In this document: piece by piece, positions 1 through 52,390 of the stretch
How positions within the stretch are numbered: the stretch's first letter is position 1
Layout of the letters: every line of letters starts with the position of its first letter
Source of the DNA: a virus
IMG/VR virus record: IMGVR_UViG_3300020200_001050
Span: 1-64,000 of that record
Strand: one strand, 5' to 3'
DNA length: 64,000 bases
Notes under the pieces: model-generated
Database searches by the model: none
Told to the model about the DNA's origin: nothing
Seen by the model: only the letters and a program-made list of their open reading frames with translations
Made by a program: the position numbers and the translations under genes

Positions 1-658
1 TTTTGACTACACTCTCCACTCGACGTGGATTATTGGGTACTACCGTGGCGACATAGGCACACCCCGACAATTTAGCAAGTCCGATCATGTCCATTTTCTC
101 AAATTTCTTGCCGAGCGGGGCCATCTTCAGCACGGCCCCTCGATTGGTCATACCGCTCTCCTGACCTCCGGTATTGCCGTAGACTTCGTTGTCCAGCATG
201 ATCGTGGTAAACCGCTCCTTGCGGAACCAGGAATGGAGCACCTGCTGGAAGCCGATGTCCGCCGTGCCACCGTCGCCCGCCATCACGACCACATCCTTTG
301 GCTTGTCGCCGAATCGAAGACGCAGACCACGGGACAACCCGCTCGCTACACCGTTTTGATCGCCATAGTTGCCGTATACGAACGGAATCGCCGCCTGAGA
401 AATAGCCAGACGCCCGCAACCGGCGGTGCCGACGGTGATGGTGTCTTCGGGATTGGGGAACGCGATCATGGCGAGACGAATGAAGAGAGTCATAGCACAG
501 CCAGCGCACATCGGGTGCTCTTCTAACACTTCCTTAAAATGACCCGTCTGTGATACACTGACCTTCTTGCCAAATGGACCGCGATCAACCAAGTCGCGGT
601 ATTCCTTGGGCATGAATCGATCAAATCCTGGACTAAACTTAACGTAATCGAGACTCAT
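1..658 (-). CDS. porB: 2-oxoacid (pyruvate):ferredoxin oxidoreductase, beta subunit, 3' truncated by window edge
   Basis: Reading back from 658 gives 219 residues with no stop before the edge. The protein has the TPP-binding beta-subunit signature: HPMCAGCAMT at about 53-62, TVGTAGCGR at about 80-88, GDGGTADIGFQ (TPP/Mg motif) at about 129-139 and LDNEVYGNTGGQ at about 156-167. The family makes or splits acetyl-CoA or succinyl-CoA with ferredoxin and serves the reductive TCA cycle in Nitrospira and Aquificales, whose five-subunit enzymes this most resembles from memory. The start at 658 follows a weak AGGA. The stop of the upstream phage gene is only 14 bases away. GC by eye is well above the rest of the window, so recent host origin or an assembly join are both possible. 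Whether alpha/gamma/delta subunits follow cannot be seen. Confidence 0.9.
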   Translation of the reverse strand, partial: MSLDYVKFSPGFDRFMPKEYRDLVDRGPFGKKVSVSQTGHFKEVLEEHPMCAGCAMTLFIRLAMIAFPNPEDTITVGTAGCGRLAISQAAIPFVYGNYGDQNGVASGLSRGLRLRFGDKPKDVVVMAGDGGTADIGFQQVLHSWFRKERFTTIMLDNEVYGNTGGQESGMTNRGAVLKMAPLGKKFEKMDMIGLAKLSGCAYVATVVPNNPRRVESVVK

Positions 659-672
659 ATCATCCTATTTAG

Positions 673-1005
673 TTAGAAATAATGTCCGCCGTCGTTTTTT
701 GGTTTGTCAATCAACGTCGCAGTTCGAGTCAAATCCCAGAGGTCTACTTGACCAAGTGGTGTAAACACATTACATGTTTCAATATCAGGTGGAACAAAAG
801 AATTAATTTTTCGGCAAAAAACTTGTGTTTTATTGGATGATTTAAGGGTATAGATCATGCTGTGTTGACAATATCCGCAGCGACTTTCTGGACGATTTTT
901 CATTACAATCTGAGAATTGGATTGTCTGTGACCGTCCTCTACAACACCAGAGACACCACTAATAGTATCATAAATGACGGTGGTGAGTTCTTGATCGCGC
1001 AGCAT
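673..1005 (-). CDS. Hypothetical protein with a cysteine pair cluster
   Basis: An open frame of 110 residues from an ATG at 1005 that is preceded by a GGGGTG ribosome-binding-like stretch. The frame could extend to 1041, but that upstream start would lie inside a perfect hairpin (1030-1055), so 1005 is preferred. The protein contains CGYCQH and further downstream cysteines (VFCRK, ETCNVF), which may form a small zinc site. I do not recognise a family. It sits directly before porB (14 bases) and after the HTH gene. Confidence 0.6.
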   Translation of the reverse strand: MLRDQELTTVIYDTISGVSGVVEDGHRQSNSQIVMKNRPESRCGYCQHSMIYTLKSSNKTQVFCRKINSFVPPDIETCNVFTPLGQVDLWDLTRTATLIDKPKNDGGHYF

Positions 1006-1029
1006 AAACACCCCATTGTTAATGGTAGA

Positions 1030-1055
1030 GTCGCCCAGCACTTATGCTGGGCGAC
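1030..1055. other. Perfect 11-bp inverted repeat hairpin
   Basis: The arms GTCGCCCAGCA and TGCTGGGCGAC face each other across a 4-base CTTA loop. It lies between the HTH gene (stop 1113) and the next gene (start 1005). No T-run follows on either strand, so a classical intrinsic terminator is not supported. It may act on mRNA stability or processing. Confidence 0.7.
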
Positions 1056-1066
1056 CCCTAGTTAGC

Positions 1067-1091
1067 TCGTTCACAGCGAAGTTGTGAACGA
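1067..1091. other. Second intergenic hairpin (9-bp stem)
   Basis: TCGTTCACA pairs with TGTGAACGA around a 7-base loop. Only 11 bases separate it from the hairpin at 1030-1055, making a tandem hairpin pair behind the HTH gene. No T-run is adjacent. Together they could protect or punctuate the upstream message; function is inferred only. Confidence 0.6.
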
Positions 1092-1112
1092 ATTTACGTG
1101 TCTACCTAAGAA

Positions 1113-1385
1113 TTAGGCAGAACGGAGGCGGGAGTAAAACCGATTGCTCCGACGACTTCTCGTCGGGGTACCGAGACGGTACACCGCAATCTTGTCACCC
1201 TTACCATTTCGAACGATGTTGGTATAGATCGAATGTCCATCCTCACGGAGTTCTGCGATTCTTGCAGAGACATTTTCCACACCAAAAAGATTTCGACCTT
1301 GCTTGACGCTGAAGGTATTATATCCCTTCGTCTTGCGCAAGTAAGCCAACATCTTATCATTTACCGACATTATAGCATTAGCCAT
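1113..1385 (-). CDS. Small helix-turn-helix DNA-binding protein (HTH_39-like)
   Basis: The 90-residue product from ATG 1385 (GAGG seven bases upstream) fits the winged HTH pattern of HTH_39-like phage proteins: KMLAYLRKTKGYNTFSVK, then VSARIAELREDGHSI followed by a basic beta-wing (GKGDKIAVYRLGTP). The tail TRSRRSNRF is rich in arginine. A GTG at 1397 is an alternative start but lacks spacing to the GAGG. The gene lies behind a strong host-type promoter (1453-1482) and before two hairpins, so it looks like an independently expressed early regulator. Target unknown. Confidence 0.65.
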   Translation of the reverse strand: MANAIMSVNDKMLAYLRKTKGYNTFSVKQGRNLFGVENVSARIAELREDGHSIYTNIVRNGKGDKIAVYRLGTPTRSRRSNRFYSRLRSA

Positions 1386-1452
1386 AACTAACCTCACTAA
1401 TTATATTTGAGTTGCACTTAGAGGGACAACTCTTGCCTCATACTTATTGTAT

Positions 1453-1482
1453 AGTATATAATATTTCAATTATTAATGTCAA
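1453..1482 (-). promoter_or_regulatory. Host-type (sigma70-like) promoter before HTH gene
   Basis: On the minus strand TTGACA (1482-1477) and TATACT (1458-1453) are 18 bases apart. The predicted start near 1446 leaves a leader of about 60 bases before ATG 1385. The -35 box overlaps the last codons of the preceding small gene. Confidence 0.6.
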
Positions 1483-1687
1483 CTTTTTTAGCCTTTTTGG
1501 ATTTCTTGGATGAATTTTTCTTTTTTGATTTCTCATGAATTACAACATCATCACTGACAAAAGGATCATCCTTTTGAGAAAACTGATTTGATTCAAATTT
1601 TGGCAAATCTAATTCCAGTTGTTGGTGTTCTTCAACTGGATGTTGTTTGTGTGAAAAAATTTCTGAAATCTTTTTTAACCATTTCAT
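1466..1687 (-). CDS. Small lysine-rich hypothetical protein
   Basis: Seventy-three residues starting MKWLKKISEIF at 1687, preceded by an AGGAGGGC Shine-Dalgarno sequence. The frame is open further upstream but that part overlaps the membrane-protein gene and has no ribosome site. The C-terminus is a lysine/serine stretch (KSKKKNSSKKSKKAKK). No family recognised. It follows the membrane protein by 11 bases and is probably co-transcribed with it. Confidence 0.65.
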   Translation of the reverse strand: MKWLKKISEIFSHKQHPVEEHQQLELDLPKFESNQFSQKDDPFVSDDVVIHEKSKKKNSSKKSKKAKKVDINN

Positions 1688-1698
1688 TATCTGCCCTC

Positions 1699-2013
1699 CT
1701 ATGAATAAATAAACCAACGAAATAACCCAATACCATCTACAACAAGAAACGTTCCATAAATAATGGTAAACCCTGTAGACCCTCGACTGATAGAAGTTAT
1801 AATTAAACAGGAAGATCCAATCATCCATAACAGATAACACAATCCTATATTTGGTTCAGGGACGGTAGTTGCTAAAACCAATGAAGCGAAAATAGAAGCA
1901 ACCATGCCGACAAATTCCAACACAAATCGCCGACTATTAATATGAAAATCATCTGAAATAAAATCAATGGACGATTCGAACACTTCACCTATACGATCTA
2001 AAACATTATACAT
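1699..2013 (-). CDS. Small integral membrane protein
   Basis: The 104-residue product has about three hydrophobic segments (roughly 33-50, 55-75 and 83-102) after a polar N-terminus of about 28 residues. No signature motif was found. Its ATG lies one base after the stop of the 43-residue membrane peptide upstream, so the two are translationally coupled. Likely acts in the host inner membrane; function unknown. Confidence 0.7.
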   Translation of the reverse strand: MYNVLDRIGEVFESSIDFISDDFHINSRRFVLEFVGMVASIFASLVLATTVPEPNIGLCYLLWMIGSSCLIITSISRGSTGFTIIYGTFLVVDGIGLFRWFIYS

Positions 2014-2014
2014 A

Positions 2015-2146
2015 TTAAAGCACCCTTTTAATATGATTATATAATTGCGATGGAGTTTCTAGCACATTATGTTGTTTGCGACGCCAAATTGTACGTACTG
2101 TCAGTAAAATCACAATAAGACCCAATATAATTTCATAATACATCAT
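2015..2146 (-). CDS. 43-residue single-span membrane peptide
   Basis: A short frame starts at ATG ATG (2146) after AGGA and ends with TAA at 2015, one base before the next ATG. The first 20 residues are hydrophobic (YYEIILGLIVILLTV), followed by a basic stretch (RTIWRRKQ), a typical membrane anchor with a cytoplasmic tail. It sits 36 bases behind a good TTGACT-N17-TATAAT promoter. Function unknown. Confidence 0.6.
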   Translation of the reverse strand: MMYYEIILGLIVILLTVRTIWRRKQHNVLETPSQLYNHIKRVL

Positions 2147-2181
2147 GGCAGAGATTCCTATTAACTCAAATAATATCATAT

Positions 2182-2210
2182 ATTATAATGAAATGGAGTA
2201 GAAAAGTCAA
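2182..2210 (-). promoter_or_regulatory. Host-type (sigma70-like) promoter, TTGACT-N17-TATAAT
   Basis: TTGACT at 2210-2205 and a perfect TATAAT at 2187-2182 with a 17-base spacer. It lies in the gap between the 2226-2759 gene and the small membrane-peptide gene, so it should start the 2146-1466 small-gene unit. Confidence 0.7.
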
Positions 2211-2225
2211 CTATTTTGTATCTTA

Positions 2226-2759
2226 TTAATACCATTGAGGAATAGTACGTTTCTTCCAAGATGCCAGATGCTGTTTCTTTTGTTGATAATAGGTGCGATA
2301 CGCATCCACCGCGTCGAGCCGTTTACAGTCAACGGGCATGGCTTGTGCAAACGGAGTTATCCCCACATTGGGAATATGGTGAGGTGTTAAAAGTAATGCC
2401 TCAAGTAAACCGCTGGACTGACACTTATGAACTTTGTTATAACGATAGGTATATTCATGACACAACGCTGTTGTCAATGAACATAGCCATAGATAATTTT
2501 GTGACGACAAACGACACCAAATAGCACAAGGATGATGAATATAAGTGGCGTGATAGAGTTGCTGTTCGCGAGCATCGGGCAGTGCCCACCGACGAACGGT
2601 TCGACCAGATTGTGTTGTGCCTTTGTATTCGTTGCCATCTAACATACGATGCGCAGTAGACAATAATTGACAACTCTCCAGTATCATTTTGACCACATGC
2701 TTGTCATTATGATATTGCGCACACAAAACGGAATCTTGATCAAGAATGAAGATATTCAT
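2226..2759 (-). CDS. Conserved phage protein of unknown function (MNIFxLDxD family)
   Basis: The 177-residue product starts MNIFILDQD and contains CDKH-type and KMILESCQLL segments (here HNDKHVVKMILES), HPCAIWCRLS and the end WKKRTIPQWY. From memory this layout is widespread in environmental phages and some bacteria, usually without a firm function. Charged and aromatic conserved residues suggest an enzyme. It overlaps the end of the 2OG oxygenase gene by four bases (ATGA-type), so they are co-translated. Confidence 0.7.
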   Translation of the reverse strand: MNIFILDQDSVLCAQYHNDKHVVKMILESCQLLSTAHRMLDGNEYKGTTQSGRTVRRWALPDAREQQLYHATYIHHPCAIWCRLSSQNYLWLCSLTTALCHEYTYRYNKVHKCQSSGLLEALLLTPHHIPNVGITPFAQAMPVDCKRLDAVDAYRTYYQQKKQHLASWKKRTIPQWY

Positions 2760-3361
2760 AGAATTAATTCCGTTAGAGCTGCCTCATTTCCCAACTGTCC
2801 TTTTATCACACTATTAAAGGCGAGACTAATTCGCTCACCCTCACTTTGTTTTACATCCACTAGATGAAAGAGATACGAAGGAAATACAATAAGTTCATTG
2901 GCATCAGGTTTGAACAAACATTCTTCCGAGTTATGATTATTCGAAACTGCAGGAGGAATAGAAAATAGTTTGCGCTCAGGTTGAAGAAATGTAATAGAAT
3001 CTTGATTGGTGGAGAAATACATAATTCCCGATAAAAAACTGTTGGGATGATGGTGTTGAGGATGAAATTCACCTTTAGTGGCGATATTGATCCATGATTG
3101 CGTTAACACTGGTGTTAACGGATGTTTTGGCTGACACACCGAATCAATATACTCTTGTAAAGTTTCTAGACAAAAAGTGCGAATTGCACCAAATTCAGGA
3201 AGCGATAGCACATATGAATCAGCACTGCGTCTGTTACCGAGGTTGCGAATAAGTGGCAATGAACGAGCAAATTGTAATTCTGCATCAGAAATTCCTGTTG
3301 CATAATGAGAAAACATAACTGGTATAGGGAACAATTCAATTATGTGTGTCAAATTCATCAT
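2756..3361 (-). CDS. 2OG-Fe(II) oxygenase superfamily protein
   Basis: The 201-residue protein carries QSWINIATKGEFHPQHHHP near 107-125 followed by SFLSGIMYF, and a distal FPSYLFHLV with GERISLAFN behind it. This matches the cyanophage-type putative 2OG-Fe(II) oxygenase family in which the histidines and the late arginine hold iron and 2-oxoglutarate. Such enzymes hydroxylate proteins, nucleic acids or small molecules; the substrate here is unknown. Start MMNL at 3361 follows GAGG in the sequence GAGGTAAATG. One of three such oxygenases in the window. Confidence 0.8.
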   Translation of the reverse strand: MMNLTHIIELFPIPVMFSHYATGISDAELQFARSLPLIRNLGNRRSADSYVLSLPEFGAIRTFCLETLQEYIDSVCQPKHPLTPVLTQSWINIATKGEFHPQHHHPNSFLSGIMYFSTNQDSITFLQPERKLFSIPPAVSNNHNSEECLFKPDANELIVFPSYLFHLVDVKQSEGERISLAFNSVIKGQLGNEAALTELIL

Positions 3362-3376
3362 TTACCTCGCGAGGGA

Positions 3377-3400
3377 GGTGGAGAACACTCGTTCTCCACC
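3377..3400. other. 10-bp stem hairpin ahead of the oxygenase start
   Basis: GGTGGAGAAC and GTTCTCCACC form a perfect 10-bp stem with a 4-base ACTC loop. On the mRNA it sits about 15-40 bases before the oxygenase start and just after a possible 27-residue peptide. No T-run is present, so a role in translation or RNA processing is more likely than termination. Confidence 0.65.
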
Positions 3401-3404
3401 CATG

Positions 3405-3488
3405 TCAGTTAGTGTGTGGTGGGCATAAATGGGGAATAACAGAAGCGGAGATGTTGGGAACGGAAACACTCATTAAATGCTCAATCAT
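3405..3488 (-). CDS. Possible 27-residue peptide downstream of tRNA-Thr
   Basis: ATG at 3488 is preceded by GAGG six bases upstream and the frame runs MIEHLMSVSVPNISAS to a TGA at 3405. It fills the space between the tRNA and the hairpin at 3377-3400. No homology is known. It could be a leader peptide or a chance frame; only the ribosome site and fit to the gap support it. Confidence 0.35.
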   Translation of the reverse strand: MIEHLMSVSVPNISASVIPHLCPPHTN

Positions 3489-3499
3489 ATTAACCTCAA

Positions 3500-3575
3500 T
3501 GGAGCTGACGAGAGGAATCGAACCTCTAACCTGCTGCTTACAAAGCAGCAGCTCTGCCAATTGAGCTACGTCAGC
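3500..3575 (-). tRNA. tRNA-Thr (anticodon TGT)
   Basis: The minus strand folds into a full cloverleaf: acceptor GCTGACG/CGTCAGC, D-arm GCTC...GAGC, anticodon stem GCTGC/GCAGC with loop TTTGTAA, and T-arm AGAGG/CCTCT with TTCGATT. Position 3503 is the discriminator T and CCA is encoded at 3502-3500. The 5' end overlaps the last bases of the SprT-like gene, whose TGA stop lies inside the acceptor stem. A phage tRNA reading ACA (and other ACN) codons would suit an AT-leaning genome. Confidence 0.95.
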
Positions 3576-4077
3576 ATCGTTTTTCCTTGTTTTGTGTTTT
3601 AGTCCATTTTACATAAGCATGTAGCAAAAGCGTTTGCATAGAATAGGCTTCCCTTTCCCATGGCAGTCTCCAATATGAGATCTTTTTTGTATCAATAATT
3701 TCAAAGACACCTTTTTTCTTATTGTGCCATCGAGATAAATCACTGTTGTTCGCGTAATCAAATAACTCATTTTTGACAAATTGTTTCAAATGCGTCAGTT
3801 CATGAGCCAAGGTAGATGTTTGTTGTTTACGTGTTTGTAGCGATGAAAGACGAATTTTAAATTCTCGTGGAGATTGGTTGGTGTCCAACCACTCACAATC
3901 ACCAAAGAATCGTCCTAATGTTGGCACAGATTCAATTGTCAAATTTACATTGCCTGTTAATCGTTTTCCGATCAATGCAGGCAACATCCACTCAACAGCT
4001 TCGCGAATTTCACGTCGTCTTTCTTTTTCAAAACCACGAATACTCAATCGTCGCAATGTTACAGGATATGTGTTCAT
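3571..4077 (-). CDS. SprT-like zinc metallopeptidase
   Basis: The 168-residue frame from MNTYPVTLRRL has the zincin motif HELTH (in STLAHELTHLKQF) about residue 96 and a downstream WEREAY that can supply the third ligand glutamate, as in SprT-type proteases. SprT/Spartan relatives act on DNA-associated proteins. Start 4077 lies one base after the stop of the upstream gene; the frame remains open to 4140 but would overlap it. The stop codon falls inside the acceptor stem of tRNA-Thr, an unusual overlap. Confidence 0.7.
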   Translation of the reverse strand: MNTYPVTLRRLSIRGFEKERRREIREAVEWMLPALIGKRLTGNVNLTIESVPTLGRFFGDCEWLDTNQSPREFKIRLSSLQTRKQQTSTLAHELTHLKQFVKNELFDYANNSDLSRWHNKKKGVFEIIDTKKISYWRLPWEREAYSMQTLLLHAYVKWTKTQNKEKRC

Positions 4078-4078
4078 A

Positions 4079-4420
4079 TCAATTGCCGATTTGTGTGTAT
4101 TCCGTTGTGTTGTTTTCATACGATTGTTTAAGTAATCCATCCAGTGTTACATCATACAGGGTTAATCCAGAATCATTTGTGATATTAATAATACTATCCC
4201 AACGAAACGAACGCCATTCCTGTAAATCCAAATCAAAAATTGGGCACGCAGAACTCGTCGTCATATTGTCCCGCTTTGATGAGTCGGGAGTTTTATAAAA
4301 AGGAATGCGAGTGGGATCTTGCGTTCCGCGAATAGTTCGCAATGTCCCGTCTTTTTTAGAAAATGTCACAATCACAATGTTCTTCCACAACATTCCGCAA
4401 ACCCATGATCTAGTTGGCAT
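4079..4420 (-). CDS. Conserved phage protein, SH3-like/translation-associated family, unknown role
   Basis: The 113-residue product contains VTFSKKDGTLRTIRGT and later FDLDLQEWRSFRWDSI, a pairing repeatedly seen in small proteins of T4-like environmental phages and reminiscent of a small beta-barrel. No catalytic motif is visible. Start 4420 follows GAGG by eight bases; the next gene upstream ends three bases away. The stop TGA is followed after one base by the protease ATG. Confidence 0.65.
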   Translation of the reverse strand: MPTRSWVCGMLWKNIVIVTFSKKDGTLRTIRGTQDPTRIPFYKTPDSSKRDNMTTSSACPIFDLDLQEWRSFRWDSIINITNDSGLTLYDVTLDGLLKQSYENNTTEYTQIGN

Positions 4421-4423
4421 ATC

Positions 4424-4894
4424 TTATTCCTCTTCTTTTGGATACACCCCCAACCACATTTTGATGCGTGACCACAAGGAAAGTTGTTTGACTTCTTCTA
4501 TCATGCGGTTAAGAATTAATTCTTGCATCATCTGTTTACCATTTCGTTCAATATTTTTGATAATTGATTTTGTTTTTTTTATATCTCGAACAATAATACC
4601 AAACATTTGAGTTTGTTTTCGAATCATATTGGCATACACTTTCGGATCTGAGAAGTGTGCCCGAAATGTGTCAAAATGCTCGACATCGTTATTTTGAATG
4701 GAAAATAAAGAAACAAGACAAGGAATGAAATTGGTTTCAGCACATTCTGTCCGTTTTCCATTCAAACAGAAATACTCAAAGTACATATGAGTGGGAGTGG
4801 GATAGAAAAAGATTCCATCATATTTTTGCGGAGTCATTTCTTTATCATCAACTACATTTATCATCAGAATTGATTTCCTGTTTTGTTTCGACAT
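4424..4894 (-). CDS. Hypothetical protein
   Basis: A 156-residue frame with no recognised motif. The N-terminal half is mixed beta-type with several cysteines; the C-terminal half (about 95-156) is helical and charged (IVRDIKKTKSIIKNIERN) and ends in an acidic tail KEEE. The start at 4894 follows AAAGG. Its first 47 bases overlap the end of the 53-residue basic gene upstream. Confidence 0.6.
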   Translation of the reverse strand: MSKQNRKSILMINVVDDKEMTPQKYDGIFFYPTPTHMYFEYFCLNGKRTECAETNFIPCLVSLFSIQNNDVEHFDTFRAHFSDPKVYANMIRKQTQMFGIIVRDIKKTKSIIKNIERNGKQMMQELILNRMIEEVKQLSLWSRIKMWLGVYPKEEE

Positions 4895-5009
4895 GAGTGT
4901 GAGCCTTTTCTTTATAGCGTCTGTAGCATTTTTTAGACAGCACGATGCGTTGATGAAACTGTCGCTCGCGCAATGACTTTGCTACAGGATTTCTCACAGT
5001 CCTACTCAT
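4848..5009 (-). CDS. 53-residue basic phage protein (RTVRNPVAKSLR type)
   Basis: The short frame starts MSRTVRNPVAKSLRER at 5009 and ends with TGA at 4848. The opening R-VRNPVAK is, from memory, a recurrent beginning of small basic proteins in T4-like environmental phages. It overlaps the upstream 29-residue peptide by eight bases (ATGAGTAG) and the downstream gene by 47 bases, so expression is coupled. No function is known. Confidence 0.55.
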   Translation of the reverse strand: MSRTVRNPVAKSLRERQFHQRIVLSKKCYRRYKEKAHTHVETKQEINSDDKCS

Positions 5010-5091
5010 CGTCGTCATCTTTCATTAAAGTTAGAAAACACACCATCATCAAAAAAAAGACAATTGCGTACATCGCAGAAAAGGATTTCAT
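5002..5091 (-). CDS. 29-residue membrane peptide
   Basis: ATG at 5091 starts a single hydrophobic segment (residues 8-22, AIVFFLMMVCFL) followed by an acidic end KDDDDE and TAG at 5002. It is the first frame behind the TTGACT-N17-TATACT promoter at 5104-5132. No clear Shine-Dalgarno was found. Such micro-proteins are common in T4-like early regions. Confidence 0.45.
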   Translation of the reverse strand: MKSFSAMYAIVFFLMMVCFLTLMKDDDDE

Positions 5092-5103
5092 AATTTATTC
5101 TTA

Positions 5104-5132
5104 AGTATATCTTATTTAGACTGCACAGTCAA
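5104..5132 (-). promoter_or_regulatory. Host-type (sigma70-like) promoter, TTGACT-N17-TATACT
   Basis: TTGACT (5132-5127) and TATACT (5109-5104) are separated by 17 bases. The spacer also contains CTAAATA (5119-5113), a degenerate late-promoter-like motif, so early and late use are both possible. It would start transcription of the 5091-3571 unit. Confidence 0.65.
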
Positions 5133-5567
5133 GTTTTTTAAATGATTCCTGTGAATTTTACAGGAAGTCCATTGATTATAGTATTGGGAAGAAAGTAGCG
5201 CATGTAATTGAAAAATATAATAATTTTCCCAATATGAACACTCTCCCCGTGAGCCACATAATTGAAGAATCTCACGGGTAAAATTGTTTTCACCTATTTT
5301 GCGAACATCTGCTCGCAACAGATCATTTGATCCCCAGTACGTTTGCCAATCTGATTGAATACGATGATGAATTTTTTTCTTTTTTTTCTTACCGTTTTTA
5401 AGAACAATTGTTTTAAATTTTGTTTTATTAAATTTTGTTAGTTTTTTGCCAATATATTTGCGATTATTCGTTAAATTAGTAATACAATAGACAAATCCGT
5501 ATGCATCACCAACATGTGCCTCAGTAAATTCCTTTCCCTTATAGGTCCACGCCGTCGTCATCGTCAT
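5112..5567 (-). CDS. GIY-YIG-like endonuclease-type protein
   Basis: The protein, about 150 residues from the MTMTTAW start, has YGFVYCITNLTNNRKYIGKK near 20-40, which fits the GIY-YIG nuclease core (here GFVYxITN...KYIG), followed by a lysine-rich stretch and WGSND. A conserved arginine and a late GECSYWENYY glutamate region could complete the site. Similar phage proteins are seg-type or uncharacterised nucleases. The start is inside the end of the upstream zinc-ribbon gene (ATG at 5567 or 5561), so translation is probably coupled. Confidence 0.7.
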   Translation of the reverse strand: MTMTTAWTYKGKEFTEAHVGDAYGFVYCITNLTNNRKYIGKKLTKFNKTKFKTIVLKNGKKKKKKIHHRIQSDWQTYWGSNDLLRADVRKIGENNFTREILQLCGSRGECSYWENYYIFQLHALLSSQYYNQWTSCKIHRNHLKNLTVQSK

Positions 5568-5721
5568 CAACAAATCCCATAAGATTAGGGGGATCATTGC
5601 TATGCTCTGCGATATATCCTCCGCAGAATACACAATATTCGAGCGATTCCTCAATTACCTGATCATCATAAATCACACGAAATTTGCCTTCACAATGTTC
5701 ACAAACAATATCTTGAGTCAT
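5539..5721 (-). CDS. Small zinc-ribbon-like protein
   Basis: Sixty residues with two CxxC pairs (CEHCEGKF near 7-14 and CVFCGGY near 30-36) and an acidic end (VDDDDDGVDL). The spacing suits a single bound zinc. It lies directly before the GIY-YIG-like gene and overlaps its start by 29 bases, which suggests the two products work together. Function not known. Confidence 0.65.
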   Translation of the reverse strand: MTQDIVCEHCEGKFRVIYDDQVIEESLEYCVFCGGYIAEHSNDPPNLMGFVDDDDDGVDL

Positions 5722-5722
5722 T

Positions 5723-6151
5723 TTATTTTAGATGTGATTTCAGCATCCAAGCATACTTGTCGTGGATGTTGATGCGTTCTTCTAAAAAATTAATGACACC
5801 TGCTTCTTTGATAGTCTCCGCTTCACCTCTGGCGCGATACAAACTTGCCCGAACTAAATCGTTAGCTGCTATGAGCCCCGCGATCATTTCGTGAGAATCA
5901 TATATTGTAGAATCTTCCGTCACTTCTGAATTTTCCAGGAGTGCGAGAAGAGATACGGGAACATAGACTCCAAGTGCGCGAATGTGTTCGGCAATGGGAT
6001 CTACTGCATTGTGAAGTTCCGTATAAAGTGTCCCGAAGAACTGATGAAGGGACGCAAACAACATTCCTTCTGCATTCCAATGTGCTACATGCGCCTTATA
6101 ATACATCACAAACGTATTGGCTAAAACTTTTTTCATTTCTTCTATTAACAT
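5723..6151 (-). CDS. dps: Dps-like ferritin (DNA protection during starvation)
   Basis: The 142-residue protein matches the Dps four-helix fold: AHWNAEG at 23-29, then LHQFFGTLYTELHNAVDPIAEHIRALG. The ferroxidase residues H24, H36, D51 and E55 keep exactly the spacing 12-15-4 known from bacterial Dps (His51, His63, Asp78, Glu82 in E. coli). Dps oxidises Fe(II) with peroxide and stores iron in a 12-mer shell. The N-terminal DNA-binding lysine tail of E. coli Dps is absent. The gene is one base away from the zinc-ribbon gene. Likely captured from a host to manage oxidative stress or iron during infection. Confidence 0.92.
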   Translation of the reverse strand: MLIEEMKKVLANTFVMYYKAHVAHWNAEGMLFASLHQFFGTLYTELHNAVDPIAEHIRALGVYVPVSLLALLENSEVTEDSTIYDSHEMIAGLIAANDLVRASLYRARGEAETIKEAGVINFLEERINIHDKYAWMLKSHLK

Positions 6152-6155
6152 AAAT

Positions 6156-6638
6156 TCACCTCAAATCAGATAGTTTAACACCTTTCCAATTAATAATTGT
6201 TGATTGGGGATATTCACTGAAATGAATAGCTTTATTTTCAAAAAGGTTATAATATAAAAGTAAATCCGAACATTTTTGTAAACCTTTAATATCTATATAG
6301 ATAATGTCTGGCTTTTTATCTTGCGGAGGAAAATCAATTTCATATAGCAATCCCGCACTGTGAGGATATTCAATTTTACCATCATCCTTGCGATTTGTAA
6401 AACCATATATGGGGGAATATATAGCTAGATCTGGAATATAGTCATGATTGACATCATAGAGTTCAGCAAATAATCCGTTTGGTGCTATAAGAGTAGCAAT
6501 AATTCGCGGTTCGCCATCTGGTTTTAGTGATTGAAAAATAGAACATTTTAATGTTTCGGTGCTCAAATGAGCATTTCCGATTGAAACAGATAATAACAAT
6601 AACACACTCATCATTATACTAATGAGTAGTAGTTTCAT
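6156..6638 (-). CDS. Exported hypothetical protein with signal peptide
   Basis: The 160-residue product begins MKLLLISIMMSVLLLLSVSIGNAH, a clear signal peptide with cleavage after about residue 23 (GNA-H). The mature part includes DVNHDYIPDLAIYSP, which resembles a short calcium-binding or FG-GAP-like loop, and two cysteines that could pair in the periplasm. The ATG at 6638 follows AAGGAG. A perfect late motif TATAAATA (6679-6672) stands 34 bases upstream. An exported late protein could modify the envelope, block superinfection or be part of release; no family recognised. Confidence 0.7.
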   Translation of the reverse strand: MKLLLISIMMSVLLLLSVSIGNAHLSTETLKCSIFQSLKPDGEPRIIATLIAPNGLFAELYDVNHDYIPDLAIYSPIYGFTNRKDDGKIEYPHSAGLLYEIDFPPQDKKPDIIYIDIKGLQKCSDLLLYYNLFENKAIHFSEYPQSTIINWKGVKLSDLR

Positions 6639-6671
6639 AAAACTCCTTGAACATGTGAAAACTATAGAATA

Positions 6672-6679
6672 TATTTATA
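6672..6679 (-). promoter_or_regulatory. T4-type late promoter TATAAATA
   Basis: An exact TATAAATA on the minus strand, 34 bases before ATG 6638 of the exported protein, in the gap behind nrdB. T4-like gp55 (encoded at 42389-42910) recognises this motif. Confidence 0.65.
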
Positions 6680-6688
6680 CAATTTAAG

Positions 6689-7675
6689 TTATGTAGTAGC
6701 CCACACATCTTCCCATGATCCACTGAGTGCACCTTTCGCATAATCGTTGCTGCGATTTTCAAAGAAATTGGTGTGGCCTGGAGCATTTACCATTCCCTCC
6801 ACCCACGATAACGGATTCTTTTTCACTTTGAAGATGCCTTTCATACTCATTGAAATTAAGCGACGATCTGCTATATACCGAATGTACTGTTTGACTTCCT
6901 CAGCTGTTAAATTGGACATCGGACCCATCTTATAGGCAAGATCAATAAATTGATCCTCTAAGTCCACCATCTTTTCAGCAATCGTATAGATGCTAGATTT
7001 CAACTTATCATCCCAAATCTCTGGGTGTTCTTCAATGAAAATTCTAAACAATTTAATCATACTCTCACAGTGTTGCGTCTCGTCCACTATGCTCCACGAA
7101 ATGATCTGCCCCATTCCTCGCATCAAGCCATGACGCGGAAAGTTGAGTAACATAATAAACGAGGAGAACAACTGTAATCCTTCTGTAAATGCTGAAAATG
7201 CTGCTATTTGCAAAGCCGTTGAATCTTTTGAGACTGCACGATCACTAATTTTCAGTAAATAATCGTGCTTGTTTTTCATTTCCTGATATTCTAGAAACTC
7301 GTTGTAGGTAGACTCTGGCATTCCTAACGTTTCAATTAAATGCGAATATGCTGCAATATGTACCGCTTCTCGCGCAGCAAATCCTAGCAGCATCATGCGC
7401 ACTTCAGGTGCTTTGAAGTAGGTGAGATAGTGCTTGACATAACCTGATGCAACATCAATATCGCCCTGAGTAAAGAAACGAAAAATGTTGGTAAGAAAAT
7501 ATTTTTGTTCTGGAGTCAGTTTCTTTTTCCAATCAGACACATCTTCCAGCATCGGCACTTCGGTCATAATCCAGTGTGATTTTTCGTGTGCCAACCAAGA
7601 ATCATATGCCCATGGATAGTGAAATGGGCGAAATGCATTTCGTTCATCTGTTAAGAGTAGTTTCTTTTTCGTCAT
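6689..7675 (-). CDS. nrdB: Ribonucleoside-diphosphate reductase, class I beta subunit (NrdB)
   Basis: The 328-residue protein has all metal ligands at canonical spacing: D72, E103, H106, E165, E199 and H202, plus the radical tyrosine Y110 in REAVHIAAY. It therefore belongs to the tyrosyl-radical class rather than the Phe/Leu variants. It holds the diiron cofactor that generates the radical for the NrdA subunit, making dNTP precursors for phage replication. Start 7675 overlaps the stop of an 85-residue gene at ATGA. A late promoter lies just behind it. Confidence 0.96.
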   Translation of the reverse strand: MTKKKLLLTDERNAFRPFHYPWAYDSWLAHEKSHWIMTEVPMLEDVSDWKKKLTPEQKYFLTNIFRFFTQGDIDVASGYVKHYLTYFKAPEVRMMLLGFAAREAVHIAAYSHLIETLGMPESTYNEFLEYQEMKNKHDYLLKISDRAVSKDSTALQIAAFSAFTEGLQLFSSFIMLLNFPRHGLMRGMGQIISWSIVDETQHCESMIKLFRIFIEEHPEIWDDKLKSSIYTIAEKMVDLEDQFIDLAYKMGPMSNLTAEEVKQYIRYIADRRLISMSMKGIFKVKKNPLSWVEGMVNAPGHTNFFENRSNDYAKGALSGSWEDVWATT

Positions 7676-7929
7676 CGAAGTTCCTCATCTAGCCATTTTT
7701 CTGCTGCCAGTGACATGATTTTCTGAAATGCGCGGTCTATCGCCGCATATTGCTCTGAGGTACATGTTAAATCTTTTTTCAAGAAATATAAATCCTGTAG
7801 TTCATCTTCATATTCTTCGTAAGAAATCGCATCATACTGTAACTTGGTTTCTAATTGAATTAATCTTTTAATTAATTTAGTTATCTGGCACGATGGGTCT
7901 TGATGTAACATATTGATTACAGCATCCAT
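7672..7929 (-). CDS. 85-residue protein between nrdA and nrdB
   Basis: A mainly helical, charged product (LIKRLIQLETKLQYDAISYEEYEDELQDLYFLKKDL) with no recognised motif; the helices could form a coiled coil. It lies between nrdA (stop 7966) and nrdB and overlaps the nrdB start by four bases, so it should be made in similar amounts. A role linked to ribonucleotide reductase is inferred from position only. ATG 7929 is used; ATG 7911 is an alternative. Confidence 0.65.
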   Translation of the reverse strand: MDAVINMLHQDPSCQITKLIKRLIQLETKLQYDAISYEEYEDELQDLYFLKKDLTCTSEQYAAIDRAFQKIMSLAAEKWLDEELR

Positions 7930-7965
7930 ATATTTTCTCTTATGCTACGGATTTGATCTTAAAAA

Positions 7966-9759: not shown

Positions 9760-9763
9760 GGTG

Positions 9764-10435: not shown

Positions 10436-10436
10436 T

Positions 10437-30384: not shown

Positions 30385-31131
30385 TCAATGAAATGTAACA
30401 ATATTTGATTTCGGAACTAATATACTTGATTCTACACTCGATGAGGGGGTAAAATCAAATTTTTCTTTGTGTAACAATCCCATATTTACAGCAATCAGTA
30501 ACAAAATAGCCAGCGGATCAAAAACCACAATAATCATAAGAATAACCACTCGCACCGCTTTGTCGATAAAAGTTGACTCGGCTCGATCATACAGAAGTTC
30601 TGCCACATATCGAATAGGTCCAATTTCTGCCATTAGTTTATTTTCGGATTGCTTGAGTGGTAATTTGGCTGTGCCAATATTCTCTAGTTGTTTTTGAATG
30701 CGTTGAAGTTCACGCGATTCTTGTGGAGTCGGGCCCTCAGGACGCTCTGTCTGTTTCAATACAAAATTCATGCGTTTCTGTAACAGTTGTTCTCGCGCTT
30801 CCAACGATTGAATTTGAATCGTCGTAGAGGATGTGACCGAAACTGTTTGAAGATGGGCAGATGATAGAAATCCAAAAATACCCATAGAGGTAATTAACAT
30901 CAAAATAAGAACAGCACCAGTAAAATAACTTTTCAAGACCCAATGAATCTGTGTCCAATTACGATAGAGCCAAGATGCTGTCACTAGTTTGGCAAGTTCC
31001 AGTGTCGATCCCATAATGACAATTGACCAAAATGCACCAGGAAAAATCTGAACCAAACCTAGCACTGAATAATACGCAGCTACACTAGAGAGTAGAATAG
31101 CAGTGACAAATAATATCACTAAGAAAATCAT
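30385..31131 (-). CDS. Multi-span membrane protein with coiled-coil loop
   Basis: The 248-residue product has hydrophobic segments near 1-25, 33-53, 66-92 and 190-222, with a helical heptad-type loop of about 90 residues (LEAREQLLQKRMNFVLKQ...) between the third and the fourth. From memory similar four-span proteins occur in cyanophage-like genomes close to uvsX or gp43. Possibly an inner-membrane factor. It overlaps gp43 by four bases (ATGA-type). Confidence 0.65.
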   Translation of the reverse strand: MIFLVILFVTAILLSSVAAYYSVLGLVQIFPGAFWSIVIMGSTLELAKLVTASWLYRNWTQIHWVLKSYFTGAVLILMLITSMGIFGFLSSAHLQTVSVTSSTTIQIQSLEAREQLLQKRMNFVLKQTERPEGPTPQESRELQRIQKQLENIGTAKLPLKQSENKLMAEIGPIRYVAELLYDRAESTFIDKAVRVVILMIIVVFDPLAILLLIAVNMGLLHKEKFDFTPSSSVESSILVPKSNIVTFH

Positions 31132-33704
31132 GCGAAAAATCCTTCAAGGGATTGTGTTTCTTCTGTTTTCCACCCAATAGCGTCTAAGACAATTTTGAGA
31201 GGTTCCACAAATGATTTCTCAAACTGCGTGTCATAGTCAATCATTGTTTCTAGTTTCCACTGTTTGGGCGGCTGTTGAATGAATGAAATCACAGAAGAAC
31301 GAAATTGATTGGGTTCTTTCAAATACACAAACTTAATCTTTTCGCCCTCTTGAATCGTTTCATATTGCGTTTCCAGATGATCCTGAATCAATTGATGATT
31401 ATACACCAAGGCACCTTTTACATGAATCGGTGTGCCCTTGGCTTTCAAGAGATCATCATCAGACGCAATCGTGTTGGATATTCGTGTTGCCCTTCTATAC
31501 TTAGACAATCCATTGACTGAACGAGGAAACGATACTTCTTGTGCTGGAAACGTTTTAAACTCTTGACGAAACGTATTAATAAATTCAATCACCGCAGATT
31601 GATTGCCAGAAAAAATCAAATTCAAGATTTCTTTAATTTTTTCACGACAAGCAGATGGCGTCGAAGACTTAATCGCCTCTAAGCCCTGAATCTTCAATTG
31701 TGGTTCAGAGAATCGGACACCTTCAAGATCATAGACATTCATCAGATATCGCTTTTTCGCTGTCCAAATGGCTTGATCAGCAATCGCCTCGCGCTTCATC
31801 TGCATTTTTTGTGCATACGCATTGACATAAGACGCAAGATTCTGATATGAGCGATCAATTTGTGGTTGAATTTTCTCTTGACAAAACTGATCTAGGGTTG
31901 AGACAATTTTATCTTTAGAAATTCCAGGAGTAGACAATTTCTTAACTAGTGGTCCAAGATTCAAATACACCGAATCAGTATCAATCGCAATTACATAATC
32001 TACATGCTGCGTCTTGAGCAACTGATTTAAATATTGATTCAGAGTTCGTTCAATCCAGCGAATAGATAATTGCCCAGAAAGTGTGATGGCTTCCGCAATA
32101 CGAATATCATAGAATCTGAAATAGTTATTTCCCATCGCGCCATACGCTGAGTTCAATCCCACTTTCTTAGACAATTGTAGATTGTTATATCGAGAAATCT
32201 CATACCCTAGCTGTTGAATACGTGCCGGAGGTGCTTTGGGATCTTTCTTCAAGGCTTCCAATTGCTTTTTCGCTTCAAGCATTTTTGTCTTATAGAGTGA
32301 GCGATCCTTAAACATACGATCCATAATCTCAGGCAGAAATCCCTGCTTTTCTGTGGAAAAGGTTTGTTTATTCGGTGTGATCGTCACTCGATGTGCCTTG
32401 AGGTCGGCTGTTGCCACAGTCTGATTTAAGAGCGTCTCAACTGTTGCTGCAGAAGTCATGGAGGAAAGTTCAGGAATTACTCGCAAAGTTTCAGGTGATA
32501 GATTATACTCCATAATCAAGTGTGGATACAGTGAGGCTAAGTCAAATGAAACAATCCACTCAAACAATCCAATTTGAGGGTCTTTGACATACGCACCCTC
32601 ATAAAATGTCTTATCTTGTTTGACACCAGGAGGCACAACAATATTCTTTGCGCGCAAGTGATTGTAACAAATAACATCCCACATTCGAACCTGCGTAAAG
32701 ACATCCTCATAATTTACTTTGTTATCATAGGCAAGTGTCAATGCCATCTCAATGAGACGCCCCTTGGCGTTGAGTTGCTCGACCAATGCGACGTCTTTGA
32801 TGTTGTATTCAATAAACTTTTGATGATTGAGTTTGTAAAGTTGATGTAGTGTTTCATATTCATCAAATGAAAGTTTTTTCTGTTTGAGTTCTACGAACGC
32901 AATATGATCCAGTTTATAACTTTCTTGAGAAGCATTGGGAGCATACTTACGAAACAACTGAAGATAATCCAGTGTAGCAATGCCCACGAGATCATAGGTG
33001 ATAACGTTTTTTTGATAGAACTGCTCTTCATCTTCCAGCACCACTCCAAACGGCGAGAGTCGTTTAGCCATTGACTCGCCAAAGAGTTTACACACACGGC
33101 GATAGAGATACGGAATATCAAAGCTCTTGATATTCCATCCCGAAACAACATCAGGTTCAGCTTCTATCCAGAATTGTAAAAAGTTCTCTAAGAGATCGCG
33201 TTCATTGAGACAATGCCGATAGAAAATATTGTCTTGTGTGTTGTTGAAAACGCCCGTTCCCCAAACATAATAATTGGGTGAGTTGGAAAGTTTGACGGTA
33301 ATTGCTGTGACGGGGCAGTCTGCTGTGCGTGGCTCAGGGAATCCACTCTCTGAACCGGTTTCAATATCAAGAAAGGCAATGACGATATTATTGACATTCC
33401 ACTCAATCACCGCTTCGGGATGTTCATCTGAAATATAGGTATACTCAAATCGCGTTTGCCCGTAAATCGTAAATCCCGTCACATCTTTATATTGATTGAG
33501 AAAATTTCGCGCATCTCGAATCTTATCAAAGAATTTCGGTTCAACGGGGGTCCCCTCAAGTGTGCGGAATTCGCTGTGTTGATTAGTTGAGGGCAAAAAC
33601 AACACAGGCGAATACTCGCGCCGTTCCTTGATGTGCTGCCCATCGCGGACACCACGATAATACAAAGTGGATCCGATACAACGGACGTTAGTGTAATACG
33701 TCAT
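31128..33704 (-). CDS. 43: DNA polymerase (family B, T4 gp43)
   Basis: The 858-residue polymerase has 3'-5' exonuclease motif FLDIETGSESG (D113, E115), further exonuclease D in ITYDLVGI, and polymerase motifs SFDLASLYPH (motif A), KKVGLNSAYGAMGNNY (motif B) and AIDTDSVYL (motif C). It replicates phage DNA with clamp gp45. The ATG at 33704 is preferred because the longer frame begins with TTG right after the previous stop. No intein or frameshift is visible. Confidence 0.97.
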   Translation of the reverse strand: MTYYTNVRCIGSTLYYRGVRDGQHIKERREYSPVLFLPSTNQHSEFRTLEGTPVEPKFFDKIRDARNFLNQYKDVTGFTIYGQTRFEYTYISDEHPEAVIEWNVNNIVIAFLDIETGSESGFPEPRTADCPVTAITVKLSNSPNYYVWGTGVFNNTQDNIFYRHCLNERDLLENFLQFWIEAEPDVVSGWNIKSFDIPYLYRRVCKLFGESMAKRLSPFGVVLEDEEQFYQKNVITYDLVGIATLDYLQLFRKYAPNASQESYKLDHIAFVELKQKKLSFDEYETLHQLYKLNHQKFIEYNIKDVALVEQLNAKGRLIEMALTLAYDNKVNYEDVFTQVRMWDVICYNHLRAKNIVVPPGVKQDKTFYEGAYVKDPQIGLFEWIVSFDLASLYPHLIMEYNLSPETLRVIPELSSMTSAATVETLLNQTVATADLKAHRVTITPNKQTFSTEKQGFLPEIMDRMFKDRSLYKTKMLEAKKQLEALKKDPKAPPARIQQLGYEISRYNNLQLSKKVGLNSAYGAMGNNYFRFYDIRIAEAITLSGQLSIRWIERTLNQYLNQLLKTQHVDYVIAIDTDSVYLNLGPLVKKLSTPGISKDKIVSTLDQFCQEKIQPQIDRSYQNLASYVNAYAQKMQMKREAIADQAIWTAKKRYLMNVYDLEGVRFSEPQLKIQGLEAIKSSTPSACREKIKEILNLIFSGNQSAVIEFINTFRQEFKTFPAQEVSFPRSVNGLSKYRRATRISNTIASDDDLLKAKGTPIHVKGALVYNHQLIQDHLETQYETIQEGEKIKFVYLKEPNQFRSSVISFIQQPPKQWKLETMIDYDTQFEKSFVEPLKIVLDAIGWKTEETQSLEGFFA

Positions 33705-33716
33705 AGTGCGCGTCAA

Positions 33717-46098: not shown

Positions 46099-47454
46099 TT
46101 ACAGAATATTGCTCACCTTCATTGCACGATAGTACATATTAGCCTTGGCGGTTAGCGCGCCCAGACCCTGTGTCGTGCCCTCAGCAAACGGATTGGCAAC
46201 AAGACCGTAGCGTGTCTTAAATCCAATCTTCGGCTGGAACGAACCTGTATCAATCGCACGAACCATCTGCAGTGGGACGTAGGGGCAATAGAAGATACCA
46301 GCGTCATAGGCATTGGTACCCTTATACCCAACCACCGCAAACTCTGAAGTGCTGGATGTTGGGAAGTACGGATCAATGTAGACCTTGATACGACCAAACA
46401 TGGTACCAGCAAAGGTGTTGCCAGTATCATCCACACTCAGATTCACTTGATCTTTCAACGCACTGTTGTAATCAAGCAGCCCTGCCATCGCGAAGGCACT
46501 GGCGACATCGGATGAACAGATGACTACGTTGCCCTTGCCCCGACGAGTTTGCTTGGCAATTGTATTTGCTTCGCGCTCAATCTGGAAAGCAAGACCCTTG
46601 ATTTTTTCAACCATCCACCGACCGTTTGAATCGGTATCCAGGTCGAATGTGCCCGTTGTCGTGGTGCCACTCTGGCAACCAACTTTGGCACCAACATAGA
46701 TGTTCCGCAGCACTTCACGGTTGATTTCCGCAAGGATTTCAGCCGAGAGGATGTTAGAGAGTTCACTCTCTGCATCCAGACCATGCACTGCTTTCAGATC
46801 CTGAGCCAATTCCATCGTGTACTCAGCCTTGAGTGCGCGAGTCTTGGCGGTGACAGTGACTTTCTCGATGGAGAATGCCATTTCACCAAATGCAGCACCA
46901 GCAGGAGATGTAGAAGTCCCCAATGCTTCACCCGCTGATGTTGTCAGACCAGTGCCTGTCGTCACGGATGTCGCGAACACGTTTCCATTGCCCGTCGAAG
47001 TATTAGATGCGAGAGCAATGTCGGCATGTGTTCCTGTGCCACCGAAATCAGTATCCGCTTCGTTGTAGAAGGCTTCTGTTGCACCGGCTGTCACGTTAGC
47101 TGTCGTATACGTGGACCGCATCGCGAAGATGAGTCCAGTTGGACCCGACATTGGCTGAACACCACACACATCGTAGGCAATGAGGTTCGGAAGCGAACGA
47201 CGCACCAACGAAATGAGAATCGGATCAAACCCTGCCATTGGACCACCAGCAGCAGCCCCACCTGTCAATCCACCACCAGTGGCGTTAGCAGGAGACGCTT
47301 CGCTGAGGATCTGCGATTCCTTGCGAATCGCTGTTTCCTGGTTCTCCAGAATAACAGCAGTTACCGCACGGCGATACGGATCCTTAATTTTGGGAAGATC
47401 TGGATGATCCAGAACTCCGCTCCACTTCTTCTCAAGATTCTCTGATAGAAACAT
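46099..47454 (-). CDS. 23: Major capsid protein gp23
   Basis: The 451-residue protein fits T4 gp23: N-terminal part with DPYRRAVTAVILENQE (about 25-40), then SLVRRSLPNLIAYDVCGVQP-type conserved core, and TRRGKGNVVICSSDVASA and C-terminal FKTRYGLVANPF. It is cleaved by gp21 at an N-terminal site and forms the capsid lattice. Strong terminator behind it; downstream of scaffold and protease genes in the expected order 20-67-68-21-22-23. Confidence 0.96.
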   Translation of the reverse strand: MFLSENLEKKWSGVLDHPDLPKIKDPYRRAVTAVILENQETAIRKESQILSEASPANATGGGLTGGAAAGGPMAGFDPILISLVRRSLPNLIAYDVCGVQPMSGPTGLIFAMRSTYTTANVTAGATEAFYNEADTDFGGTGTHADIALASNTSTGNGNVFATSVTTGTGLTTSAGEALGTSTSPAGAAFGEMAFSIEKVTVTAKTRALKAEYTMELAQDLKAVHGLDAESELSNILSAEILAEINREVLRNIYVGAKVGCQSGTTTTGTFDLDTDSNGRWMVEKIKGLAFQIEREANTIAKQTRRGKGNVVICSSDVASAFAMAGLLDYNSALKDQVNLSVDDTGNTFAGTMFGRIKVYIDPYFPTSSTSEFAVVGYKGTNAYDAGIFYCPYVPLQMVRAIDTGSFQPKIGFKTRYGLVANPFAEGTTQGLGALTAKANMYYRAMKVSNIL

Positions 47455-50719: not shown

Positions 50720-50727
50720 TATTTATA
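50720..50727 (-). promoter_or_regulatory. T4-type late promoter TATAAATA before gp67-like gene
   Basis: Exact TATAAATA in the gap behind gp20, 14 bases before ATG 50706. A short leader with GAGG would follow. Confidence 0.7.
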
Positions 50728-52390
50728 ATCTTTTCTTTGCTGCACTCACAGCTGCATCTAAATCTGGCGTCAAGGATTTTGGTGCTACAGGTGCTGTCGG
50801 CAATGGTTCTGGCATCGCGGGAGGTTGCATCGCAACGGGTTGCGCAGGAAGTTCTCCGACTGGTGCCATAGCAGGGTCCGATGATGTTATTTCTTGTTTC
50901 TGTTCCTGTTCTAGCTCATCTTGCATCTCTGCCATTTCGTCTTCAGTCATTCGCAGAACATGACGTTTCACCCAGGCTTGAGAGTAATATTTACCAACAA
51001 AAGGATCAATTTGAGCTGCCAGGGCGACACGATTCTGAGTTAGATCAGCTTCACGTAATTCATAATAGTGATTGTCAGACATGAAATCGTAAGTAATGTC
51101 TTGTTTGATTTGATCCCATTCCTCCACAGAACAAATGCCTTTGAGAGACAATTGTACTCGTAAGGCATCATCAAATATTTGTGAAAACTTTCGACGAAGT
51201 CGTTGAATAAACTTAAAGAATTTAATTTCATCGCGGGTAACTTCTGCCGCCCGACCCAATCCAGCCAATCCACCACCCGTTTGATCATCTAAACGAGTCA
51301 TTGGCACATTGAGAGATTGATAGAGCTTTTTGCGGAAATAAATAACATCTTCCAACTGCCCAAGATTTTGCCCAGCTGGCAGCGTAGTGATTTCTGTGCC
51401 TTTAGATCCCTCGCGCCTGGGCAACCAAAAATCTTCCAGCATACTCAGATGTTTTCGTTCATCCCGAATTTCTCCTGTGCTGGCATCATATACCAATTTG
51501 TTGCGGTATTTGACCATAATATCATGGACGTATTGTTCCGCTTTGAGTTTGGGAAGATTGCCAACATCAATATAGAAAATTCGGCGTTCTGGTGCACGAG
51601 ACAACCGATAAATGACCACCGCATCTTCAATCATGCGCAACTGATTTAGTGGCTTGATGGCTTTATGGAGATGTGAAATCACCATGACCGATTTGGCATC
51701 TAACATGCCTGACGGAACATAGACAATAGAATCAGTAGCAATACGAATGCCTTGACTTGTTGATGCGGTATAAGTCTGCGCAGTCATCCCACGTTCATTG
51801 AACACATAGTATTCAGACACCGCAGCAATTGTATCTACCCCAGTTGACGAATCTCGTTGTTTCAATATTTCACGAACTTTTCGAATCTTTCGTGGATCAA
51901 TAAATCGTAACTCTTGAATGCCCAGCTTGGGATTGTCCTCATTCACCATCACATGAAAGTAGACTCGTCCATCCACATACCAGCGACGAAACAATTCTTC
52001 GGCAATATTCTTGAAATTTAGCAGATGAAGAATTTCTTCAAATTCTGCTTCGATTTTCTTTTTGATGGTATCTGGTTGTTTGAGTTGTTCGAGATTGATT
52101 TTGACGATTTGATTGTCTGTATCTTGTGAGATTGATTCAGTGATAATATCATCAATCGCCATGGAGCATTCTGGATGAAGCGACATTTCGCGATACCGCG
52201 TCACCAATTCAAGTTCGTTGCGGACTGATCCTTCTAAATCTACATAGGTGCCATAATACGCACCCTGCGTAATAGTGACTGCGCCGTCTTCAATAGCGGA
52301 TTGAGGGAGAACCAGCGCGGGTTTGTCGTCTGGTTGAACTTGAACTGATTCTTTTTTGCCGAGAGTGAATCCGAATAACGAAATTGGCAT
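50723..52390 (-). CDS. 20: Portal protein gp20
   Basis: The 555-residue protein fits T4 gp20: LEGSVRNELELVTRYREMSL, ECSMAIDDIITESI, the ELRFIDPRKIRKVRE core and YFRKKLYQSLNVPMTRL. It forms the dodecameric portal through which DNA is packaged and to which the neck binds. The C-terminus is proline/alanine-rich. A terminator for upstream gp19 lies between the two genes. Confidence 0.96.
   Translation of the reverse strand: MPISLFGFTLGKKESVQVQPDDKPALVLPQSAIEDGAVTITQGAYYGTYVDLEGSVRNELELVTRYREMSLHPECSMAIDDIITESISQDTDNQIVKINLEQLKQPDTIKKKIEAEFEEILHLLNFKNIAEELFRRWYVDGRVYFHVMVNEDNPKLGIQELRFIDPRKIRKVREILKQRDSSTGVDTIAAVSEYYVFNERGMTAQTYTASTSQGIRIATDSIVYVPSGMLDAKSVMVISHLHKAIKPLNQLRMIEDAVVIYRLSRAPERRIFYIDVGNLPKLKAEQYVHDIMVKYRNKLVYDASTGEIRDERKHLSMLEDFWLPRREGSKGTEITTLPAGQNLGQLEDVIYFRKKLYQSLNVPMTRLDDQTGGGLAGLGRAAEVTRDEIKFFKFIQRLRRKFSQIFDDALRVQLSLKGICSVEEWDQIKQDITYDFMSDNHYYELREADLTQNRVALAAQIDPFVGKYYSQAWVKRHVLRMTEDEMAEMQDELEQEQKQEITSSDPAMAPVGELPAQPVAMQPPAMPEPLPTAPVAPKSLTPDLDAAVSAAKKRL

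Follow-up and report, generated by a model that had tools for sequence, protein, structure and literature searches.

The DNA analysed here (the window) comprises bases 1-64000 of a 66,380-base linear viral record, IMGVR_UViG_3300020200_001050, and it begins inside a gene (porB-like, porB below) for what looks like the beta subunit of a 2-oxoacid:ferredoxin oxidoreductase of Nitrospira. The questions that this locus raises are whether a phage indeed carries one subunit of a five-subunit carbon-fixing enzyme and, if so, what such a subunit could do on its own. A reading of the sequence alone (the sequence-only reading) had assigned the record to a T4-like phage, and this assignment holds: genes for the gp23 capsid protein, scaffold, gp20 portal, tail sheath, gp15, terminase and gp43 polymerase are present, those of a contractile tail among them. 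Among 50,697 GenBank phage records no close relative turned up, all matches being partial and none above 41% identity. The phage also has a tRNA-Thr (TGT) gene at window positions 3500-3575, and the right end of the record (L095:5350-6378, record bases 65350-66378) encodes a repetitive protein with ~48-residue repeats (AIFGYGYTGSYVSMTNLV...), which is probably a tail or adhesion protein. The main features are as follows.

2..658 (-), porB-like gene, codons 1-219 of 299; remainder in L002:10001-10900
673..1041 (-), orfX, the phage gene directly upstream of the porB-like gene
1113..1397 (-), phage winged HTH gene (HTH_39), kept in the relative L177
7966..9759 (-), phage ribonucleotide reductase large subunit, the query for finding relatives
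31128..33716 (-), T4-like family B DNA polymerase, gp43 type
46099..47454 (-), T4-like major capsid protein gp23
50723..52390 (-), T4-like portal protein gp20

Since the record starts inside porB, it is the record and not the window that truncates the gene, and the 219-amino acid product is open at the first base. The C-terminal TPP domain is recognized in this product (PF02775, E 1.1e-15), and models of 2-oxoacid:ferredoxin oxidoreductase beta subunits match it with a best E of 4.7e-27, under every NCBIfam full-length cut-off. The full-length copy on another contig, L002, encodes 299 amino acids without a stop. Beta subunits are defined by a GDG TPP motif and by a CX2C motif with two further cysteines for a [4Fe-4S] cluster (PMC10052474); the porB product has all of these, i.e., the TPP motif GDGGTADIG...DNEVYGNTGGQ and the four conserved cysteines C51, C54, C81 and C239 (numbering of the full-length copy), so that the TPP site is as intact as the sequence-only reading had it. 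The closest relatives are Nitrospira proteins with 92-94% amino acid identity (93% over the window part), in agreement with the proposed Nitrospira-type reverse-TCA enzyme, while the nearest host gene is 86% identical at the nucleotide level. Compared with this gene, dN/dS is ~0.06 over the whole of porB and 0.02 in its host-like tracts (see below). The GC content of porB, 0.53, exceeds the ~0.38-0.45 of the phage genes, as had been noticed from the sequence. The AlphaFold model is moderately confident (pLDDT 72.5) with a poor N-terminus, and its top structure matches are oxidoreductase beta chains, though with high rmsd. Judged by its sequence, the porB product is the beta subunit (TPP and [4Fe-4S]) of the Nitrospira five-subunit 2-oxoacid:ferredoxin oxidoreductase.

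That the gene is phage-borne, as proposed earlier, is established by contigs other than the window. A scan of IMG/VR yielded L002, part of an 18,986-bp contig that is 99.2% identical to window 1-10,658 and extends past the window end. There, orfX is followed by a 14-bp gap, the full porB (299 codons), an ATP-dependent DNA ligase, a conserved phage gene and a phage exonuclease, with ~10 kb of phage DNA before porB and ~8 kb after it. L014 starts within porB and continues into the same ligase region, and L096 joins the upstream phage genes to porB codons 1-14. All three contigs come from Lake Tanganyika metagenomes, samples of which were assembled one by one (PMC8245535). Window 1-127 and L014:1-127 are an exact 127-bp overlap of contig ends, which suggests an assembly graph break at k=127 inside porB; the two may thus be adjoining contigs of one assembly, and it is L002, from another sample, that counts as the second, independent witness. 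Within porB, the window record and L002 differ by one synonymous change in 657 bases. To the left of the window, where the sequence-only reading had suggested looking for other Por subunits, phage genes or host chromosomal genes, L002 and L014 have the phage DNA ligase and no other subunit. An assembly chimera, in which a Nitrospira chromosomal fragment is fused to a phage contig, is effectively ruled out by L002, L014 and L096 and must be considered extremely unlikely: porB does lie at the very end of the record with a host-like GC content, contigs of three records terminate in or near it, and the 127-bp overlap means that two of them are perhaps not independent, but L002 spans the gene within phage DNA, no gamma subunit follows porB as it does in Nitrospira, the nearest host gene is only 86% identical in nucleotides, and the phage genes flanking porB have contiguous orthologues in a relative. 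The locus therefore holds a homologue of a host metabolic gene, with its coding sequence and catalytic residues intact, between phage genes on both sides. The start of porB lies 14 bases past the orfX stop (673) on the same strand, as previously noted, and an AGGA motif precedes its ATG; because the two genes have the same direction and are so close, they are probably transcribed together.

The relative (75.9 kb), whose ribonucleotide reductase is 84% identical in amino acids to that of this phage, retains orfX and the ligase, yet lacks a beta gene at that locus. Its orfX orthologue (L177, 7540-7863) does not have porB next to it, and the space between orfX and the ligase is taken by other genes, including a tRNA-like sequence and a probable HNH endonuclease (these two recognized by eye).

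The porB gene itself is not uniform. It was compared with that of L079, a Lake Tanganyika Nitrospira (Deep Cast sample, 65 m), and the tracts that fall within the window are the following.

518..658 (-), codons 1-47, diverged phage-like tract, GC3 0.47, ~71% nucleotide identity to host L079
86..517 (-), codons 48-191, host-like tract, GC3 0.72, 89-96% nucleotide identity to L079
2..85 (-), codons 192-219, start of the second diverged tract, which comprises codons 192-237 in L002, GC3 0.48

The first host-like tract holds the TPP motif and three of the four Fe-S cysteines; in the full-length copy, a second one (codons ~238-271, GC3 0.78) and a last diverged tract past codon ~271 (GC3 0.31) follow. 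Per 24 codons, nucleotide identity to L079 goes from 0.71 (codons 1-48) to 0.89-0.96 (49-192), down to 0.71-0.79 (193-240), up to 0.96 (241-264) and to 0.79 beyond, and steps of this kind are absent from host-host comparisons. In the best segment, codons 58-190, 20/125 (16%) of synonymous codons differ from L079 as opposed to 64/129 (50%) outside it, a contrast that was reached in none of 300 shuffles when all segments were searched; two of the other pairs tried, L080-L066 and phage-L080, are also uneven, though far less so (5 and 9 of 300). The third codon position is G or C in 127/178 codons of host-like tracts and in 52/121 codons of diverged ones (p 1e-6); L079 has no such contrast between the same tracts, and the GC3 of phage genes is ~0.27-0.44. 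Since tract borders were picked from the identity data, it is the shuffle test and the GC3 contrast that carry the argument for mosaicism, and trees of individual segments serve as illustrations; in the tree of the diverged tracts the phage gene is nearest to L051/L081/L075 on a long branch, a placement that the AU test fails to separate from one with the L079 clade. Relative to the host, dS is 0.30 and dN 0.006 in the host-like tracts, while the synonymous sites of the diverged tracts have reached saturation, with a dN of 0.11, so that selection is poorly measurable there and some functional change is possible.

The alternation could also arise if the assembly had switched from a diverged gene of the phage to that of a co-occurring host and back, given that the assemblies are from short reads and that phage and host share long identical runs in the host-like tracts. 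We consider this very unlikely: the tracts agree between the window record and L002, L014 equals L002 save for 2 bases across the junctions at codons 191, 237 and 271, and the host-like tracts, 94% identical to L079, are 6% off the only local host genome available. The simplest history is that a local host gene replaced parts of a phage allele that was already old. The recent capture considered from the sequence alone thus stands for one part of the gene, which is recently host-derived, and fails for the other, which has long been in phage-like composition, as its GC3 and saturated synonymous sites indicate. Alternating host-like and phage-like tracts in both identity and GC3 resemble the patchy GC of cyanophage psbA, ascribed to intragenic recombination with hosts (PMC3900582, citing Sullivan 2006 and Zeidner 2005). 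In both cases the phage copy is of one central subunit of a host energy or carbon enzyme; unlike psbA, which serves photosynthesis, porB concerns dark CO2 fixation.

In Nitrospira, the homologue heads a beta-gamma-epsilon-delta-alpha cluster at every host locus that is long enough, and there is a second five-gene cluster, delta-alpha-beta'-gamma-epsilon (the names delta and epsilon follow Aquifex naming). The order of the second cluster is that of A. aeolicus OGOR, but a peptide of N. marina that had been assigned to POR alpha is similar to the alpha subunit encoded in this very cluster. Five-subunit enzymes of this type are the oxygen-tolerant pyruvate and 2-oxoglutarate oxidoreductases of the reverse TCA cycle (PMC8115632, PMC3578206); the A. 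aeolicus enzymes nevertheless lose activity in air (PMC10052474). The phage product has all cofactor residues in common with Nitrospira beta at 93% amino acid identity; unlike the latter, its gene has diverged tracts of phage-like GC3 and stands without the four partner genes. No match to alpha, gamma, delta or epsilon was found in the window or in L178, and PF01855 (alpha) and PF01558 (gamma) are missing from the whole 66,380-bp record and from the record of L002. The other subunits could be encoded in the missing part of the genome, of which 66 kb and another ~8 kb in L002 are covered.

Beta-type subunits recur in viral records. Among 13 such records, a beta-type gene (PF02775) is present in 12, alpha (PF01855) in 4 and gamma (PF01558) in none; most of the records were fetched by beta similarity, so the first count is expected and only the alpha and gamma counts are informative. 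L212 (IMGVR_UViG_3300047312_000028, 176 kb) and L214 (89 kb) have beta-prime, 85-89% identical to that of Nitrospira, without alpha or gamma, and it is located upstream of a ligase, a conserved gene and an exonuclease resembling those of this phage. The GC content of L212 and L214 is ~47-49%, near that reported for the Baikal phages discussed below. Four low-GC T4-like IMG/VR contigs that are probably marine (L004, L007, L009 and L010) have both beta types and a ferredoxin, three of the four have alpha, and most add Nfu-like, IscA-like and aldehyde dehydrogenase genes.

The sequence-only reading had not counted a gene of this kind as known phage cargo, which proved incorrect: the T4-like Nitrospirota phages VP_1723/VP_99 from Lake Baikal carry a ferredoxin oxidoreductase similar to the POR beta of N. 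defluvii, and modulation or a boost of reductive TCA carbon fixation was proposed for them (Coutinho et al. 2020, PMC7678222). Compared by that description only, they are of the same phage type and also have a POR-beta-like gene; their GC content is ~47% versus ~41% here, and they add a 2-oxoglutarate oxidoreductase epsilon subunit, an Fe-S protein, a ferredoxin and a desaturase. The available portion of that account makes no mention of lone beta carriage or intragenic mosaicism, and these two features, the recurrence of beta-only carriage included, appear to be new relative to the 2020 work. Our data extend that work to another lake, place the gene firmly in its genomic context, and add the mosaic and the repeated carriage of beta-type subunits. 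A literature search for Nitrospina phages with this enzyme found no paper. In archaeal viruses, amoC is likewise carried as the only subunit of a multi-subunit nitrifier enzyme, with a different enzyme and different hosts.

What would a phage gain from the beta subunit alone? Beta provides the TPP site and one [4Fe-4S] cluster of the reductive-TCA carboxylase, here of the predicted oxygen-tolerant type. Alone it should not make an enzyme, and the phage product is therefore expected to enter the host complex, most likely by assembling with host alpha, gamma, delta and epsilon. The reading that we favour, and hold to be rather probable, is that porB is an authentic auxiliary metabolic gene of a T4-like Nitrospira phage. 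Its product would join the host subunits and, while the infected cell no longer transcribes its own genes, sustain or raise the activity of the enzyme, and its allele became a mosaic when stretches of it were swapped with the chromosomal copy in a local Nitrospira. Beta-type genes recur and enzymes of this kind are sensitive to oxygen, which suggests the replacement of a labile or limiting part; the Fe-S/TPP subunit may be lost to oxygen in infected cells. Only tentatively, we extend this to phages of nitrite oxidizers in general, which might repeatedly carry just the beta-type subunit as a spare for the most labile piece of the enzyme and keep it compatible through recurrent gene conversion with the host.

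Phage beta might instead displace host beta so as to alter the choice of substrate (pyruvate vs 2-oxoglutarate) or slow carbon fixation. The host does have two homologous five-subunit enzymes, and the changes in the phage protein cluster at codons 10-40 and 192-222, outside the cofactor core, where contacts with partner subunits are possible; with the core of codons 41-191 identical to the host consensus and with marine phages supplying ferredoxin, Fe-S assembly proteins and alpha as well, a sign of more rather than less activity, such interference seems distinctly unlikely. Somewhat better placed, and still unlikely, is the idea that porB is a passenger gained by illegitimate recombination and retained without a metabolic role. 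This would fit a lone subunit of a five-subunit enzyme that is missing from a close relative and has amino acid changes in its diverged tracts, but synonymous saturation means a long residence during which no stop, frameshift or change of a cofactor residue arose, the exchange with the host gene was renewed, and beta-type subunits recur in other phages.

Nitrospira and its relatives are the drivers of nitrite oxidation and of CO2 fixation in the dark, in both lakes and oceans. That a phage keeps a subunit of the CO2-fixing enzyme, and that the gene is exchanged between phage and host, suggests a redirection of dark carbon fixation by infection, in the way that cyanophages redirect photosynthesis, and the reading of beta as a spare part, if true, would place porB beside cyanophage psbA as its counterpart in dark carbon fixation. 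That phages repeatedly pick the beta type amounts to a testable statement on where in the enzyme the flux limit lies during infection. Extra beta copies (~90% amino acid identity) are also present outside the five-gene clusters in the chromosomes of N. defluvii (L197:4613-6311) and N. moscoviensis (L198:4403-5819), where they adjoin beta-prime and transposase-like genes or a truncated alpha; these copies are possibly remnants of phage-borne modules.
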